From: a virus
DNA: 64,000 nt
IMG/VR virus record: IMGVR_UViG_3300042507_004311
Coordinates: 1-64,000 of that record
Reading direction: 5' to 3' (one strand)
Made by a program: the position numbers and the translations under genes. Within the stretch, counting starts at the first letter, position 1. Each line of letters starts with the position of its first letter. The notes under the pieces were generated by a model that did no database searches, was not told the DNA's origin, and saw only the letters and a list, made by a program, of their open reading frames with translations. Shown here one piece after another: positions 16,665-24,390 of this stretch.

Positions 16665-18605
16665 ATGCCAAGTTCTTTAAACCTCAATGGCCTTAAAATC
16701 TATAAACCCGGCGTTTATGCAACAGTCGATGCAAGCGCTTTAGGTGGTCAAAATACAAGCACAGGCAATGTTTGCCTAGTTGGTGCTTTTCCAAGTTTTG
16801 AAGCTGACAATCCGCTGACCTTTACAAGCGCAGGAGCGCTAAGGGATTATGACAGCACAGACAAAGAATTAGCACTACTTGGTAAACTTGCCTTTGCCCC
16901 TAGCGTGGATGCTCGTGTCCCCGCCGGCGTTAATTCATTGACCGTTTTAAATGTTCAAACATGCACACAAGCAAAATATGATCTAGTGAATGATAACGCT
17001 GATACAGTAGCGACCTTTGAGGCGTCTGTATGGGGAAACAAGGGAAACAACACTTATGTGACTTGTTCTTTTGATGGTGCGTTTGATGTTACTTTAAATC
17101 GTAATGGACTTGCAGAAGAATATTTAAATGTAACAAGTGGCGATGTATGTTCTTTTGAGTATACAGGTACAGCGCTCACAACAGCAAGCCTTGATCTTAG
17201 TGATACAAATAATCTTGTTATCAATTGGACTAAAACCGTTGATCTTAGTTCAAACAATGCCAGTGTTAACGTTACCGATATGAAAACTGTTGCGGGGCTT
17301 GGCTTCCAATTGGATGAAGCACCAAACGCAAATGTTGTAATTGTGATTAGTGGTTATAATGTTGATGGTGTAGCTAGTACACAAACCATCACTTTGAGTA
17401 ATACAACTAAGGTTACAAGTAACGTATTTTCTCAAGTCTATGGGTTATCAATCACCAATACAGCACAAGCCGGCTTAGTACTTACAATTAGCGGGGTCGC
17501 TTTTGATCTTGATCTCTCAACCTTTGAGAGTGCGGGGCATGTTGTGGACTTTGTGAACCAAGCTAGTACAGATTACCATTTTTCCGCCAATTATTTAGCA
17601 AGCAAGTTATATGATGCCACTGTTTTAGATGGGTTTAGACTTGCTCAAAATATCAAGGGCGTTGAGTCTATTGTCACCGCCAATTTACAAGAACTTATTG
17701 ACACTTTAGCATCCTCTAAAGTTGTTTCTTTAGTTCGTGTTGGTTCAAGTGCATGTGATGATTTTACCAATATTACAGGGGCTTTTTTACTTGGTGGAAC
17801 TCAAACCCTTCCCGTATTAAATGATTGGAAAGCATCTTTAGAACTGATTGAAACAAGTGATATTCAAATCGTAGTACCTTGGTCAAGTGATGTAGATGTA
17901 CATAAGGCAATTCTTGAACATTGCACAAAATCCGCCGTTGCAGGTAGTGAACGTAATGCGTGGGTGGGTGCTAGCGCTAATCAATCAATCACAAATATCA
18001 AAGATACTTGGGTTAAGGCGTTGAATAATAGAAATATGGCAATCGTTGGGCAAAGTGTAAAAGTCACTAATCCACAAGGCATTATTCAAACCCTTGAACC
18101 TAAGTATCTTGCTTTGATTTGTGCATCTATGCAAGCGGGGACACCTGTATCAACCCCATTGACAAGAAAACGCCCTGATGTGGTTGATGTGCTTGGTTCA
18201 TGGATTGCAAATAGAGATGTAACAGATGCAATTAAAGCGGGGATTTGTGCTTTAACTTCCGATAATCAAGGGTGGAGAATTGAACGCTCTGTAACTACTT
18301 GGATTAAAGACAATAACCCAATTTATTCAGAAGTTTCCGCTAATGAAAGTATCAACACAAGCGTAAGAGATTTGAGAAACGCACTAGATATTTATATAGG
18401 TGATAGAAATCTAAATGTAACTAGTGCAAGAATCTTAGGCATTGTTTCCGCCCGCCTTGATCAACAAGTCTTAAATGGTATTATCAAAGCATATAAGAAC
18501 ATCGTGCTTGAAAACATTGGTGATACTCTCAAAGTAAATTACACAGTAGCAGCAGTAGAACCTTTGAATTTTATTGCAATCACCGCCAGCGTAAGCAGAT
18601 TTTAA
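16665..18605 (+). CDS. tail sheath protein
   Basis: A 646-residue contractile sheath protein, followed at once by the tube gene as in other myophages. The N-terminus YKPGVYATVDAS is typical of sheath proteins. The middle holds variable beta domains (about residues 130-290). The C-terminal third shows the conserved order: PLTRKRPDVVDVLGSW, then ERSVTTWIKDNNPIYSEVS, then NESINTSVRDLRNALDIYIG. The promoter-like TATACT at 16631 and AGGAG support separate, strong expression. This gene is the key evidence for a contractile tail. Confidence 0.9.
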   Translation: MPSSLNLNGLKIYKPGVYATVDASALGGQNTSTGNVCLVGAFPSFEADNPLTFTSAGALRDYDSTDKELALLGKLAFAPSVDARVPAGVNSLTVLNVQTCTQAKYDLVNDNADTVATFEASVWGNKGNNTYVTCSFDGAFDVTLNRNGLAEEYLNVTSGDVCSFEYTGTALTTASLDLSDTNNLVINWTKTVDLSSNNASVNVTDMKTVAGLGFQLDEAPNANVVIVISGYNVDGVASTQTITLSNTTKVTSNVFSQVYGLSITNTAQAGLVLTISGVAFDLDLSTFESAGHVVDFVNQASTDYHFSANYLASKLYDATVLDGFRLAQNIKGVESIVTANLQELIDTLASSKVVSLVRVGSSACDDFTNITGAFLLGGTQTLPVLNDWKASLELIETSDIQIVVPWSSDVDVHKAILEHCTKSAVAGSERNAWVGASANQSITNIKDTWVKALNNRNMAIVGQSVKVTNPQGIIQTLEPKYLALICASMQAGTPVSTPLTRKRPDVVDVLGSWIANRDVTDAIKAGICALTSDNQGWRIERSVTTWIKDNNPIYSEVSANESINTSVRDLRNALDIYIGDRNLNVTSARILGIVSARLDQQVLNGIIKAYKNIVLENIGDTLKVNYTVAAVEPLNFIAITASVSRF

Positions 18606-18618
18606 AGGAGCTTAGAAA

Positions 18619-19056
18619 ATGGAAAAAGTTTTTAGTGGTGCAAGAGCAAAGCTTTATTTTAACACAGCATTAGGGCAAGTAGAGGCGGGCTTTGCCACAG
18701 GTATTAGCGTTAATGAATCCCACCAATTACAAAGAGTTAATGTACTTGGAAACATTGATTCAGAAGAAATCATTCCTACATCTCGTTCTGTTGATGTTCG
18801 TTGCGATTTAGTTCGTATTAGCGGGCGTTCACTTCGTCAATTGGGGATTTGGCCTAAAGGTCAAACTGTTGATGTTCTTAGTTTCCCAGAACTCACCATT
18901 GTTGTCTATGATGGCGTGGAGAATAAGATCGTTGCACAAATTGAAGGGGCAAGATGTGAAACAAGATCATTTCAAGTTCAAGCGGGGGCGGTGGTTTCTG
19001 AGAATGCAAGTTTCCAAGCTAAACGCCTTAAAGATGAAGCTGATTTGACCTTGTAG
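18619..19056 (+). CDS. tail tube protein
   Basis: A 145-residue protein immediately after the sheath gene with an AAGGAG ribosome site. Size, position and pattern (GARAKLYFNTALGQVEAGFA, then RVNVLGNIDSEEI, then DVRCDLVRISG) fit the inner tube protein of Mu-like or T4-like contractile tails. Tube subunits stack as hexamers inside the sheath. Confidence 0.85.
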   Translation: MEKVFSGARAKLYFNTALGQVEAGFATGISVNESHQLQRVNVLGNIDSEEIIPTSRSVDVRCDLVRISGRSLRQLGIWPKGQTVDVLSFPELTIVVYDGVENKIVAQIEGARCETRSFQVQAGAVVSENASFQAKRLKDEADLTL

Positions 19057-19281: not shown

Positions 19282-20964
19282 TCAAAGAAACTTATTAAAC
19301 AATATTCTAAATGCGATTTCGGCGGTAGCAGGTACGACCCCATTACCTAGTAAAGCTATTTCATCCACGATACTTGTATAACTGTTGCACAATTCTTCAT
19401 AGTCCAACCAATTGGCAAGCCCATGAGCATTTCTACCCATCTCGGATTCAACATTTCTCTGTAAGTCAAGAGGTTGATTTCTTCCTGTGTTCTCTCTGAT
19501 TCCGGCTTGGCTAGTGCTTGTTCTCTCATCGTCCGTAGTTCCGTGAATGTGAGCGTGTTTGATCTCAATGCTTGCAGTGCTGTTGAGTCTTGTCCCTTCT
19601 TTCGATTCGACAACCTCTCTACCATTTCCGGCGTCCTCATTGCATCGTTGAAATCCCGTTTCTGTGGTGTTGCCCAAGTCATCGTTGATTTGTTGGTGTC
19701 TGATCTCAATGCTTGCATTGCTATTGAGTCTTGATGTCCCTTGTCTAAGCGATTCATCACTGCCTCGGGTGAATAACTCATGTGCTTGTGAGCCGCCTTG
19801 GTGGGAGTTGCCCAAGTCTTGATCTGTTCGTTCATCGCTTCTAAGTGCACTTGTCTTGAAATCTTCGAATCCGTCCGATCTATGCTTGCATGTTCCTTGA
19901 TCGGTGTTGTCATGCTCGCATCTTTTGAATCGCTCTTTGTTGGGGTTGTCCAAGTCTTGATCTGTTCCGAAGTATTCCATTCGTTCATCGTGACTTGGTG
20001 GGCTAATTGCATTTGTTTCTTGTCTTTTCGATCCCCCGAATCGGTCATCTTCAATTGTCGATCTATAATTTGTGAGGGGGTCATCGTCATTTGTGTTTCG
20101 TTGGTGCTTGGTGTTGCCCAAGTCTTTTCTAAGAGTTCTAGGGGGTTCAAAGAATTGTTGCTCTCGATCTCTACCGCTAGGCGTGCAAATGCTTGAGGAT
20201 TCGATTCTTTCAATGCTAAAAGTTGACTCAGTAATCTTTTGTAATAAGACGGTTGGGTCACTTGCCCCATTTGCCCCCTGATCATTGTGATTTGTTGATT
20301 CGCATAGACTAGCTCTGTCGCCGTTGAGTGGGCATGTGATGTCTTTACAACTGTCATGAAAGTACTCGGAAAACTCTTTAAGCCTAGAATTTGTAATATC
20401 TGTTCTTTTTCCCAAGATAAAGACTCTTTGCCTAAGATGGGGAAGGCCTGTTTCTCTCGCTGAGAATATGCCCCAATGGCATTCGTAACCGATTCTTTCC
20501 AACTCTCTAATGACATGCAACAAAACCGGCGTATCTTTGGGGTCATTCCATTCTTCTGATTGGAGTTTTGAGCTGATGATTCCTCTAACATTTTCCAAGA
20601 GAACAAAGGCAGGTCTTGACTCAATGATTCCTTGCTTGATAAAGGGAAATAGGTGTCTTGGGTCTGTATCGCCGTTTCTTCGTCCGGCACTTGAAAAAGG
20701 TTGGCATGGGAAACCCCCAGAGAGGATATCCACGCAGCCACGAAACTCTTTGAATGGGAAAGTTTTAAGGTTCGACCAAATAGGAGCGGGCGGGATGATT
20801 CCTTTTTCCATCTTGTCAATAAGGTTTTCGATTGCGTAAAGTTCGATCTCACAGTAAGCGATGGCGCGCAAACCTTTGATAACTCTTGCAAGTCCAAGAT
20901 CAATGCCTCCGTATCCTGTACAAAGGGAGATATGATTAAATTTTTTGGTAGTATCCACATTCAT
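19282..20964 (-). CDS. DNA (cytosine-5) methyltransferase
   Basis: A 560-residue C5 methyltransferase that would methylate phage DNA. It has motif I (LCTGYGGIDLGLA, residues 14-26), motif IV with the catalytic cysteine (PCQPFS, C87), ENV (124-126), LRQRVFILG (about 176-184) and motif X near the end (GNGVVP, 540-545). The long target-recognition region (about 190-500) is very hydrophilic. It repeats DLGNT, DLDNP, LGNSH and DLGNTT about every 50 residues, like LADTNS-type repeats of phage Dcm enzymes. The whole gene is overlapped by a second long open frame at 19356-20960. It lies antisense inside the tail cluster, so it is probably an independent moron-type insertion. Confidence 0.9.
   Translation of the reverse strand: MNVDTTKKFNHISLCTGYGGIDLGLARVIKGLRAIAYCEIELYAIENLIDKMEKGIIPPAPIWSNLKTFPFKEFRGCVDILSGGFPCQPFSSAGRRNGDTDPRHLFPFIKQGIIESRPAFVLLENVRGIISSKLQSEEWNDPKDTPVLLHVIRELERIGYECHWGIFSARETGLPHLRQRVFILGKRTDITNSRLKEFSEYFHDSCKDITCPLNGDRASLCESTNHNDQGANGASDPTVLLQKITESTFSIERIESSSICTPSGRDREQQFFEPPRTLRKDLGNTKHQRNTNDDDPLTNYRSTIEDDRFGGSKRQETNAISPPSHDERMEYFGTDQDLDNPNKERFKRCEHDNTDQGTCKHRSDGFEDFKTSALRSDERTDQDLGNSHQGGSQAHELFTRGSDESLRQGTSRLNSNASIEIRHQQINDDLGNTTETGFQRCNEDAGNGREVVESKEGTRLNSTASIEIKHAHIHGTTDDERTSTSQAGIRENTGRNQPLDLQRNVESEMGRNAHGLANWLDYEELCNSYTSIVDEIALLGNGVVPATAEIAFRILFNKFL
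19356..20960 (-). CDS. overlapping alternate-frame ORF with second Dcm-type signature
   Basis: A 534-codon open frame, shifted +1 relative to the methyltransferase and beginning 4 bases after its start. The back half does not look like a random shadow. TWATPST, TWTTPTK, TWATPTK and TWATPQK recur about every 50 residues (near 281, 335, 382 and 429). It closes with LNPRWVEMLMGLPIGWT near 503, the C-terminal signature of 'WPTPTA-repeat' phage cytosine methyltransferases. The same bases read as DLGN repeats and as GRNAHGLANWLD in the main frame. It could be translated separately, joined by frameshift, or be an evolutionary remnant. No clear internal ribosome site was identified. Confidence 0.4.
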   Translation of the reverse strand: MWILPKNLIISPFVQDTEALILDLQELSKVCAPSLTVRSNFTQSKTLLTRWKKESSRPLLFGRTLKLSHSKSFVAAWISSLGVSHANLFQVPDEETAIQTQDTYFPLSSKESLSQDLPLFSWKMLEESSAQNSNQKNGMTPKIRRFCCMSLESWKESVTNAIGAYSQREKQAFPILGKESLSWEKEQILQILGLKSFPSTFMTVVKTSHAHSTATELVYANQQITMIRGQMGQVTQPSYYKRLLSQLLALKESNPQAFARLAVEIESNNSLNPLELLEKTWATPSTNETQMTMTPSQIIDRQLKMTDSGDRKDKKQMQLAHQVTMNEWNTSEQIKTWTTPTKSDSKDASMTTPIKEHASIDRTDSKISRQVHLEAMNEQIKTWATPTKAAHKHMSYSPEAVMNRLDKGHQDSIAMQALRSDTNKSTMTWATPQKRDFNDAMRTPEMVERLSNRKKGQDSTALQALRSNTLTFTELRTMREQALAKPESERTQEEINLLTYREMLNPRWVEMLMGLPIGWTMKNCATVIQVSWMK

Positions 20965-21029: not shown

Positions 21030-21656
21030 TTAGATATATGAAATTTCTCTTTTTACTTGATCTAATGCTGAAGCAAGTTTGTCAAAATATGTATTCATGG
21101 CAATCGTATACACATCCAATTTTGAACAAATATCATGTGCAAGATCATCATGATCCACATCTACATCTACATATTTAGTAAAATCATCATGGCTCTCACC
21201 TTCGATTGATAGGCGATATGTATTCTTTTCAACAGATATAGACACAAGCATATAAGCCCGCCCGTCTTTGATCTTTAATACACGTTCTTGTGTATCGCTA
21301 TGGACTACAATTACTTCATAACCATGTTCTAAAGCATAGTTGATGATGTTTCTGCTGTCCGCTGTTTGCCATGGTTGTAAGCAGGGTTCAGATTGAATCT
21401 CTTTGTCAATAACAATATTATTGATTACTAATTGCCCTTGGGCGTCATTGCGATTCCAACGATTCAAATAGTCATTGAACTCGGACTTTTTGATAAAACA
21501 TTCAGGTGCGCAACCATAATCATGGGAAATGATAAATTCGTATTTATCCCCATTTTCTTGCCATGAATAGATATCTAAACAAGCGGATAAACAAGATAGA
21601 GCGCTGTGGCTTCTTTTCCTAGAGAGATTTGTTAGATCGAAGTTAAAAATTTTCAT
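21030..21656 (-). CDS. hypothetical protein under box promoter
   Basis: A 208-residue protein of unknown function, starting MKIFNFDLTNLSRK. A cysteine-containing N-terminal half (HSALSCLSACLDIYSW) is followed by an alpha/beta segment and an acidic DVDVDHDDL stretch. A promoter of the CACCTTAACC type lies just upstream (21673-21716), and the ribosome site is AAAAAGGATTC. The cytosine methyltransferase follows on the same strand, so the two probably form an operon. Confidence 0.7.
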   Translation of the reverse strand: MKIFNFDLTNLSRKRSHSALSCLSACLDIYSWQENGDKYEFIISHDYGCAPECFIKKSEFNDYLNRWNRNDAQGQLVINNIVIDKEIQSEPCLQPWQTADSRNIINYALEHGYEVIVVHSDTQERVLKIKDGRAYMLVSISVEKNTYRLSIEGESHDDFTKYVDVDVDHDDLAHDICSKLDVYTIAMNTYFDKLASALDQVKREISYI

Positions 21657-21795: not shown

Positions 21796-22224
21796 ATGGA
21801 TTTAAGAAACTTAGTAACAGAACAAGAAACAATCAAACCCCTAGTAAAAAGAGAACTTCCGTTAATTGTGACATACATAGACCCAGATGGCGAGCAGCAT
21901 CAAGATACATTGATCTCAAAAGTGCCTGATGGTGATGGTAAATTGATGATTGATAGAAAGATGGCAATGCTTGCGGGTGGTGCGTGGGAAAATTTGAGTC
22001 CTATGGCAAAGCTAAGAATTGAAGCAATCGCAACTTTAAGCGTTCAATTGGTTTCCCCCCCTGATTGGGTTAACAAGTGGGCAGTGATTGACGATGAACT
22101 TCTATTTGACTTAAGGGAGCAACTTGGCAAGCATGCTAATTTATACTTTCGCCCAAACGTTGGACAGGGTCAAGGAGCTAAGGAGGTCGCAAGGGTGGCG
22201 ATTTATTCAAAAGAGCTTGCCTAG
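21796..22224 (+). CDS. tail assembly chaperone (upstream frame)
   Basis: A 142-residue protein between the tail tube and tape measure genes, the fixed place of tail assembly chaperones (lambda gpG-like). It is overlapped in the +1 frame by a second ORF that lacks its own good start, which suggests that a longer fusion product is made by ribosomal frameshifting. The C-terminal part (FDLREQLGKHANLYFRPN) is helical. Confidence 0.75.
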   Translation: MDLRNLVTEQETIKPLVKRELPLIVTYIDPDGEQHQDTLISKVPDGDGKLMIDRKMAMLAGGAWENLSPMAKLRIEAIATLSVQLVSPPDWVNKWAVIDDELLFDLREQLGKHANLYFRPNVGQGQGAKEVARVAIYSKELA

Positions 22225-22429
22225 TTCGTTTCCCAACTCACAGTTTAACCCCCTTTATTCGGTGCTTTCTGAAAATGATTACTTTGAAACATGGCTTTTA
22301 TCCCTATCTGATGAAGATTATGATAAAATCCAACCAAGATACACAGTAAACCAAGATAAAACCATTAAGCATGAAAACCCAATTGACGATCAATGGGAAA
22401 AAGATTTTTGGGATAAAGAAAGGGGTTAA
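22124..22429 (+). CDS. tail assembly chaperone, frameshift extension
   Basis: This frame overlaps the end of the upstream chaperone ORF and continues for about 70 codons beyond its stop (NPLYSVLSENDYFETWLL onward), ending two bases before the tape measure start. The relative frame is +1 (equivalently -2). An AAGGAGG Shine-Dalgarno-like sequence (22180-22186) lies in the overlap. A TCA AAA GAG site (22207-22215) would allow Lys-tRNA to slip from AAA to AAG. The fused product would correspond to lambda gpG-T. The ATG at 22124 is probably not used. Confidence 0.65.
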   Translation: MASMLIYTFAQTLDRVKELRRSQGWRFIQKSLPSSFPNSQFNPLYSVLSENDYFETWLLSLSDEDYDKIQPRYTVNQDKTIKHENPIDDQWEKDFWDKERG

Positions 22430-22431
22430 GT

Positions 22432-24390
22432 ATGACAAGCAAACGAGTTGAAATTATCCTTGATCTAAATGATCAAGAGGCAATGAACGCACTAAAAGCG
22501 TTTCAAGAGCAATTCAAAGAAACAGCACAGATTAAAGAAAAAAGTTCTAAGCAAGACGAACAAGCTATTAAACAACAACAAAGAGAACAAGAGAAACTTG
22601 CTAAAGCTCAAGAGAAACAAGCACAAGCACAACAAAGAGAACAAGAGAAACTTGCACAAGCACAAGCAAAGCAAGTACAAGCACAAATTAGAGAACAAGA
22701 GCGTCTTGCACAGGCACAAGCTAGAGAAAATCAAAAGATACTAGAGCAAAAGCAAAAAGAAGAACAAGTAAGAAAAGCAAATCAAGAGAAACAATATCAA
22801 GCACAACAAAAAGAAAATCAAAAGATATTAGAGCAAAGAGAAAAAGCAAAACAGCAAGAGCAAAAAGAATATGAAAAAAAGATACAACAAGAAAAAGCAC
22901 AAAAAGAACAAATTGCACGACTAGAAGAATCTGAACGAAATAAGCAATTAAGGCATGAAGAAAAATTAAAATTTATGCAAGAGGCACAAGCAAAAGCCGA
23001 GGAAAAAGAGCGTCAAAAAGCCGAACAAAATGCGGACAAAGTTTTGAAGGCACAAGTACAAAAAGAAGAAGCCCTTTTGAACAAAAAAAAATTAGCATAC
23101 ACAAATTTTGGGGGTGCGCAAGTTCTAGCGGGTGCCGGGGCGGTCATGGGTTCGATTACAAGCACAGACGCAAGCGGGGTTATTAACGCCCTTAGTGGAG
23201 GAGCGGGGCAAGGGATTAATGCGCTTGGTGGTTTACTCAGTAATCTAGGTATGCAAAAGACGGGGTCAATTGTACAGACCGCCGGCGCATTAGTCCCAAT
23301 CGTTGGGCAGGGGGTCGCTCAAGCAATTGGACAAGTTTATTCTAGGTTTACAGAGGTTGCACAATATGAATTGCCTAAAATGTTTGCCCGTTATCGTGTG
23401 GGGTCGGATTTCGTGGATAAAATACCTCAAAGAGGGGAGGCTTTCGGCTTTTCAATGATGGATTCTTTGAATAATATTAATGCGTATGCATCGGCGTATG
23501 GAAGTAGTACGGTTTTGAATAGTACAGGTATTAATAGACTATTTAAGGATATACGAAGCTCTGAAATGCTTGGTATCAATCCCATGGCAATCCCTCAATT
23601 TGCTTCTTTAGGTGGTATGGGTGGCGCAATGCAGAACGAAGAACAAATGGCGGGGATTGCTAGAGGCGTTTTACAATACGCAACTAGTAAAAATATGCTA
23701 GGTTCACAAGCTGAAAAGTTATTAGGTGCTATTAATGCGGGGATTCAAGGGATGGCATCAAAAGGCTTGGCGGTAGATGCTCAATCACTAACTAGCTTTA
23801 TTATTGGGGTATCAAATGCGGGGATTAAGTCGGTTCAAGGTGCGGGGGCTTTGCGAGCAGTACAAGGCATTGAGTCAATTGCGGGACAAGCTAAGGGGGG
23901 TTATTTAGGCAATTTCCAAGGTTTAGCAATGCAAGCCCTACAAGCTGAGGCTTCAAGTCGTAGCGATGGAACACCTTTAGGCATGATCAACATGCTAGAA
24001 CAGTTTCAAGCTGATCCAAGACTAGCAACGCAAATCATTAAAAAGCGCTTAGGGTCGACAGTTTCCCGCCTTGCACTTGGTGGGGCGGGGTTATCACAGG
24101 CACAAATTAGTGCATTATTTGGGGCGGGGGCGGGTGACATTGGTGGGACTTTTGATTTGACGGGGCAAATTGGGGATCAATTGGATGTGACAAAGAAACT
24201 TAATAACTTAGAACGCCAACGAGTAGAACGAAACTTTGATTTCTCACGCACACAAGAAGGCACTTCACAGCTTGAAACTTTGTTAAATATCCAACAGAAA
24301 CTTGAGATCATGATTGAAAGCGTGGGAACAAGTGATCTTGCTAGATCATTAACAAGTCTTGCAGATGCCATTTTAGATTATTTACGATAG
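22432..24390 (+). CDS. tape measure protein
   Basis: A 652-residue protein that sets tail length. Residues about 20-225 are an extreme Q/K/E/A-rich coiled coil built from short QAQQREQEKLA-like repeats. Residues about 225-340 are glycine/alanine-rich and hydrophobic, as in tape measure membrane-interacting regions. It follows the chaperone pair, as usual. The modest length implies a short tail, roughly 100 nm by the usual residue-to-length rule. Confidence 0.85.
   Translation: MTSKRVEIILDLNDQEAMNALKAFQEQFKETAQIKEKSSKQDEQAIKQQQREQEKLAKAQEKQAQAQQREQEKLAQAQAKQVQAQIREQERLAQAQARENQKILEQKQKEEQVRKANQEKQYQAQQKENQKILEQREKAKQQEQKEYEKKIQQEKAQKEQIARLEESERNKQLRHEEKLKFMQEAQAKAEEKERQKAEQNADKVLKAQVQKEEALLNKKKLAYTNFGGAQVLAGAGAVMGSITSTDASGVINALSGGAGQGINALGGLLSNLGMQKTGSIVQTAGALVPIVGQGVAQAIGQVYSRFTEVAQYELPKMFARYRVGSDFVDKIPQRGEAFGFSMMDSLNNINAYASAYGSSTVLNSTGINRLFKDIRSSEMLGINPMAIPQFASLGGMGGAMQNEEQMAGIARGVLQYATSKNMLGSQAEKLLGAINAGIQGMASKGLAVDAQSLTSFIIGVSNAGIKSVQGAGALRAVQGIESIAGQAKGGYLGNFQGLAMQALQAEASSRSDGTPLGMINMLEQFQADPRLATQIIKKRLGSTVSRLALGGAGLSQAQISALFGAGAGDIGGTFDLTGQIGDQLDVTKKLNNLERQRVERNFDFSRTQEGTSQLETLLNIQQKLEIMIESVGTSDLARSLTSLADAILDYLR

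Follow-up and report, generated by a model that had tools for sequence, protein, structure and literature searches.

How can one stretch of phage DNA read as a cytosine methyltransferase in two overlapping frames, and does the second reading encode a protein? The locus lies on the minus strand of a 64,000-nucleotide stretch (positions 1 to 64,000 of IMG/VR virus record IMGVR_UViG_3300042507_004311), which we call the window. A preliminary description had reported a 560-codon methyltransferase frame and a 534-codon frame shifted by +1, and had proposed three possible readings: overprinted genes, a fusion made by frameshifting, or a relic. Both frames were confirmed, and both start with ATG. The main frame, here alpha (19282..20964, 560 aa), encodes a C5-cytosine methyltransferase catalytic chain; the +1 frame, here beta (19356..20960, 534 aa), encodes a target-recognition region and motif IX. 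The span of 19356-20964 given originally is correct for the overlap of the frames and too short for the whole gene, as the main gene continues to 19282. The methyltransferase gene and a 208-aa ORF of no known identity (21030-21656) sit as an inserted minus-strand module among genes of a contractile-tailed phage, with a tail sheath gene on one side and other plus-strand genes of this type in the flanks (16665-19056 and 21796-24390). In the region upstream of the methyltransferase gene, a scan for promoters and terminators returned nothing on the strand of the gene.

The 3' half of the gene is repetitive. Its repeats follow the form GACTTGG(G/A)CAACnCC, which is read as DLGN or DLDN by alpha and as TWATP or TWTTP in the +1 frame. 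Of four repeats described originally, three match GACTTGGGCAACnCC exactly, starting from 20124, 19818 and 19680: repeat 1, GACTTGGGCAACACC (20110..20124; DLGNT in alpha, TWATPS in beta), repeat 3, GACTTGGGCAACTCC (19804..19818; DLGNS and TWATPT), and repeat 4, again GACTTGGGCAACACC (19666..19680; DLGNT and TWATPQ). Repeat 2 (19942..19956, from 19956) is a variant, GACTTGGACAACCCC, that gives DLDNP and TWTTPT, so that the DLGN/TWATP double reading holds for three copies. At the 3' end, a single run of bases is read as GRNAHGLANWLD in the main frame, together with motif X GNGVVP, and as WVEMLMGLPIGWT in the +1 frame, just as had been claimed.

Over the methyltransferase gene, the +1 frame contains one stop codon, the TGA immediately before the beta ATG, versus about 10 in synonymous shuffles; for the +2 frame the corresponding values are 53 and 49. 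For comparison, 20 further long genes in the window carry 11-91 stops in their +1 frames, with open stretches of at most 108 codons. When viral contigs were scanned with the second frame, 37 relatives were recovered, all open in both frames over the matched region. Since a choice of loci based on the second frame was to be avoided, a second viral set was picked by the main-frame catalytic half only, giving 80 loci, or 78 after duplicate removal. Stops in the second frame of close relatives had been named at the outset as evidence that would speak against it; in the catalytic region of these mutually related loci, whose counts are not independent events, we found 5 versus 239 expected from synonymous shuffling, a procedure that breaks neighbour effects between codons. 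The frame was open over this region in 75 of the 78 loci versus 2.5 expected, and the +2 frame of the same loci held 628 stops versus 633 expected.

Alpha matches Pfam PF00145 with an E value of 9e-34, over residues 9-198 only, and TIGR00675 over profile positions 2-163 of 329, i.e. motifs I to VIII. Its TIGR00675 score of 96.4 lies slightly below the cut-off of 100.65 set for whole proteins, which is what a partial match should give. Motif IV (GGFPCQPFS, with the catalytic Cys; 20692..20718), motif VI (ENV; 20587..20595) and motif VIII (RQRVFILG; 20410..20433) fall in invariant alignment columns, and the occurrence of motifs I, IV (PCQ), VI (ENV) and VIII in one chain identifies alpha as the catalytic chain of a C5-cytosine methyltransferase. 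Motif X (GNGVVP, residue 540; 19330..19347) completes the alpha set of I-VIII plus X. Motif IX is missing from the alpha frame in the window, where it thus does not precede motif X as in a single chain of the Dcm type, and it was found in that frame in 0 of 120 loci. In an AlphaFold model of alpha, made with 47 relatives, pLDDT values are about 90 for most of residues 11-200 and 83-94 for residues 541-560, motif X being part of a confident helix, and mostly below 50 over residues 208-537. The solved structures closest to the model are those of M.HhaI and M.HaeIII. Judging from the model, the mid-gene stretch (19354..20343), which is predicted to be disordered and overlaps the beta target-recognition region, looks like a linker to motif X.

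The missing motif is found in the other frame. The beta C-terminal element LNPRWVEMLMGLPIGWT (19401..19451) lies a short distance upstream of motif X and is built like motif IX of C5 methyltransferases, of which KLTPRECWRLQGFP is an example from single-chain controls. An IX-X profile of beta, built from seven loci with a short alpha and from the corresponding chains found in phage Bora and on a Streptomyces plasmid, aligned with canonical single-chain enzymes IX-to-IX and X-to-X (hhalign score 20.9, P 0.0015), the best score among 20 column shuffles being 14.0. The preliminary description had missed that WVEMLMGLPIGWT is methyltransferase motif IX, absent from the main frame. Because the main frame lacks precisely this motif, the two frames are best read as two subunits of one enzyme and not as two enzymes.

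In the viral loci selected by alpha, the motif IX element occurs in the +1 frame only, never in the alpha frame or in +2, and in most loci it lies 16 or 29 codons upstream of motif X. A prokaryotic set, with one genome per species, was found by the peptide NPxWVExLMG alone, a strict pattern that samples one subtype and leaves the frame of the motif free to vary; alpha could be recognised in 79 of these loci, and motif IX was at +1 of alpha in all 79. These independently found loci support both the overprinted gene pair and the earlier proposal that one DNA, read in different frames, gives rise to the LADTNS-like and the WPTPTA-like family. In the single-chain controls (CHPC1175, phi1207.3, CUB-EPI_14, Javan78 and Soondubu), motif IX is in frame and the +1 frame has 10-38 stops. 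Phages C72C1, R23.9, Shelly, ABMM1, Yong-M2-251 and BS-TP4 show the same arrangement as the window, and Bora and Float294 have the short-alpha form. In N15, K1G, S9-5 and VLCpiS13e, a sequence similar to beta is found in the +1 frame with an unchanged offset, with no match to the simple motif pattern.

We then compared substitutions by codon position, the third codon position of beta being the first of alpha. Across 32 disjoint locus pairs, differences at alpha positions 1, 2 and 3 were 1129, 745 and 1760 in the catalytic half and, in an alignment guided by the +1 protein, 1804, 1124 and 1012 in the recognition half. The catalytic half thus shows the normal main-frame pattern and the recognition half the normal +1-frame pattern. 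The same switch is seen when the window and locus L007 are aligned by the main protein, with 51, 29 and 25 differences at positions 1, 2 and 3 over residues 401-525. The beta target-recognition region, with its TW(A/T)TP repeats (19452..20345), has substitutions mostly at beta wobble positions, which shows beta to be the constrained frame there. Within the catalytic half, amino-acid conservation of beta exceeds that of synonymous shuffles with a z value of 108; the +2 frame is also above shuffles (z 57), which indicates that part of the nucleotide conservation reflects shared ancestry. The +1 excess is clearly greater than the +2 excess at both ends of the catalytic half, and not around alpha residues 82-126.

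We note that the window and locus L004 (4001-5680) are identical over alpha codons 1-280 and again nearly identical at the end, and differ at more than 100 positions in the recognition region (codons 281-525). To judge from the two sequences, this looks like the exchange of a target-recognition segment between close relatives.

Relatives of beta are 25-96% identical to it over the full length. The match of beta to PHROG 1008 ('DNA methyltransferase') is weak for the window (E 0.0045) and strong for the +1 chains of relatives, indicating that the +1 chain has been called as a protein-coding gene in other genomes. Searches of beta against Pfam and NCBIfam gave nothing meaningful, its profile matched none of the solved structures, and beta alone in AlphaFold (42 sequences) had a mean pLDDT of 55, too poor for use. 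Conserved stretches of beta that face the catalytic domain in the other frame, among them CEqSLmWRSKPSpsRTWLrRWKRdSW and SSetWKkWVTeQRGEYSQR (within residues 1-180, about 20420-20960), matched no known domain. In three of the 78 loci (L053, L059 and L085), beta is interrupted near codon 100, at the same place in all three, by one stop each in L053 and L085 and by two close together, with a rejoined frame, in L059. The frame is then open again and continues with TP repeats and the LNPxWVExLM element. An ATG lies just downstream of the stop in these loci, where beta may restart internally; given the position of the stop, the first third of beta may be optional or dispensable.

Both frames open at nearly the same point. 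An overlapping start, (A/G)TGTGG, is present in 61 of the 78 relatives and provides an ATG (or GTG) for the +1 frame and, two bases later, a GTG for the main frame; 36 of these 61 loci have no other main-frame start codon before that GTG. A purine-rich, Shine-Dalgarno-like tetramer precedes the start in 38 relatives. In the start cluster of the window, ATGAATGTGG (20955..20964), the main frame has its own ATG at 20964, the beta ATG is at 20960 and an alpha-frame GTG is at 20958, so that the alpha and beta starts are 4 bases apart. As the beta start nearly coincides with that of alpha (ATGTG in most relatives), a single ribosome-binding site probably serves both. Other families, represented by K1G and Shelly, have a +1 frame that begins only tens of codons into alpha.

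The openness and constraint of both frames, the distribution of motifs between them, the location of the constraint and the conserved start are computational observations. We consider it highly probable that the locus is genuinely overprinted and that its two genes encode the subunits of one split C5-cytosine DNA methyltransferase, similar to M.EcoHK31I. From these observations we infer that beta is translated, that the chains assemble and that the assembly methylates DNA. The two chains would be started from essentially the same place, in most relatives with ATG for beta and GTG for alpha. Alpha would supply the AdoMet-binding and catalytic motifs I-VIII, form a disordered linker over the mid-gene stretch and pack its terminal motif X on the catalytic domain. 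Beta would bring the target-recognition region and motif IX, building the small, DNA-reading domain. Neither chain would be a complete enzyme alone; together they would hold the normal motif set.

Three other explanations were weighed against two overprinted subunits. The +1 frame could be an untranslated relic, or be open through codon usage or repeats, and the repetitive 3' half of the gene would suit such an artefact. However, synonymous shuffles that preserve codon usage give about 3-12 stops per gene, the 5 stops seen versus 239 expected come from the catalytic part, which is not repetitive, and recognition-half substitutions favour beta third positions; we give this explanation virtually no chance. 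Shuffling with codon usage preserved rules out both the relic and the codon-usage artefact, and the relic that had been proposed is excluded by a +1 frame that is open and conserved in relatives with catalytic domains of about 50% identity. It is also conceivable that beta is an independent protein, such as an inhibitor or accessory factor, that overlaps the methyltransferase by chance. Its N-terminal half indeed has no similarity to methyltransferase domains in Pfam and NCBIfam, but alpha is devoid of motif IX in all 120 loci and the motif stands in beta where it would be expected, making the chains complementary, and some betas carry motif X as well. We regard an independent beta as very unlikely.

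A single polypeptide made by programmed frameshifting deserves somewhat more weight. A +1 slip near motif VIII would add the recognition region and motif IX to the catalytic half, with or without a slip back for motif X, and would thus join I-VIII, IX and X as in ordinary enzymes; the frame offset, which is +1 in every case, fits this proposal. Frameshifting does not, however, require an open +1 frame upstream of the slip, yet this frame is open in 75 of 78 loci; it does not account for the conserved +1 start, and it would need two slips in most loci, where motif X is in the alpha frame. Openness across the whole catalytic half and a start of its own likewise disfavour the frameshift fusion considered in the preliminary description. 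Overall, frameshifting appears improbable.

In the original 1995 paper on M.EcoHK31I, the small-chain gene reportedly lies inside the large-chain gene in another frame. Two-chain C5 enzymes with such motif splits are proven for M.EcoHK31I and M.AquI (PMC3404938). M.EcoHK31I (YGGCCR) has motifs I-VIII and X in its large chain, in which the predicted target-recognition domain was also placed, and IX in its small chain; in M.AquI (CYCGRG) the first chain ends after motif VIII and the second carries IX-X (PMC3404938). The locus resembles M.EcoHK31I in that the large chain holds I-VIII and X and the second chain IX, and in that the beta frame, out of phase with alpha, overlaps it and is subject to selection. 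It differs from M.EcoHK31I in that beta spans nearly all of alpha, with start codons of the two that overlap or adjoin, and in that substitution patterns put target recognition in beta. The locus is not of the AquI type: unlike in M.AquI, motif X is retained by alpha, here as in most relatives, and the second frame extends across all of alpha instead of lying downstream. Seven loci (L034, L054, L056, L098, L110, L118 and L120) are AquI-like, with a short alpha and motifs IX and X in the +1 chain.

Nested +1 frames like that of the window are annotated in Escherichia phage K1G (gp34/gp35) and in Paenibacillus phage Shelly (gp55/gp56, 'g55 internal gene'), with both products called 'DNA methyltransferase' in each case. 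Unlike in the window, beta starts tens of codons inside alpha in these two phages, and no function is assigned to the overlap in either annotation. In the ShiLan element, a phage methylase gene also holds a second protein out of frame, an HNH endonuclease (PMC11855218). That endonuclease belongs to a mobile insertion, whereas the second frame described here extends over the original gene itself and specifies a part of the enzyme. Four loci, L011 (1422-3095), L016 (4001-5869), L048 and L052, have a +1 frame that runs beyond motif IX and the alpha stop, in L011 and L016 with more WPTP/WSTP-type repeat units, and L052 matches the motif IX pattern twice; the extra units are possibly spare recognition cassettes. 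In Stenotrophomonas phage SOVA965 (L126, 1489-1989), the annotation 'DNA-cytosine methyltransferase' is given to the motif IX frame alone, and an ENV motif is in another, unannotated frame.

Split C5 methyltransferases, an internal overlapping gene and two unexplained phage annotations of the nested frame are already known. A search of the open-access literature found no papers on an end-to-end overlap with overlapping start codons, on a switch of constraint between frames at a domain boundary, or on how general the +1 arrangement is among viruses and prokaryotic genomes. It is likely that the C5 methyltransferases of phages and prophages include a large class, present in viruses and in prokaryotic genomes of many phyla, that is encoded as overprinted subunit pairs, with complete overlap and ATGTG starts in the clade of the window. 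Under this proposal, single-gene annotation has recorded half-enzymes, and recognition evolves in the +1 frame while alpha carries its out-of-frame reading as a disordered linker.

If this is true, many 'complete' entries for phage and prophage cytosine methyltransferases would describe the catalytic half only, with the DNA-reading part in a frame that is usually unannotated, and recoded cloning of the annotated gene would abolish activity. The low-complexity 'LADTNS' and 'WPTPTA' proteins would be explained as two readings of the same DNA. These loci would also constitute a widespread natural system for the evolution of two full-length proteins on one DNA, in which constraint switches frame at a domain boundary and two overlapping starts share one ribosome-binding site.
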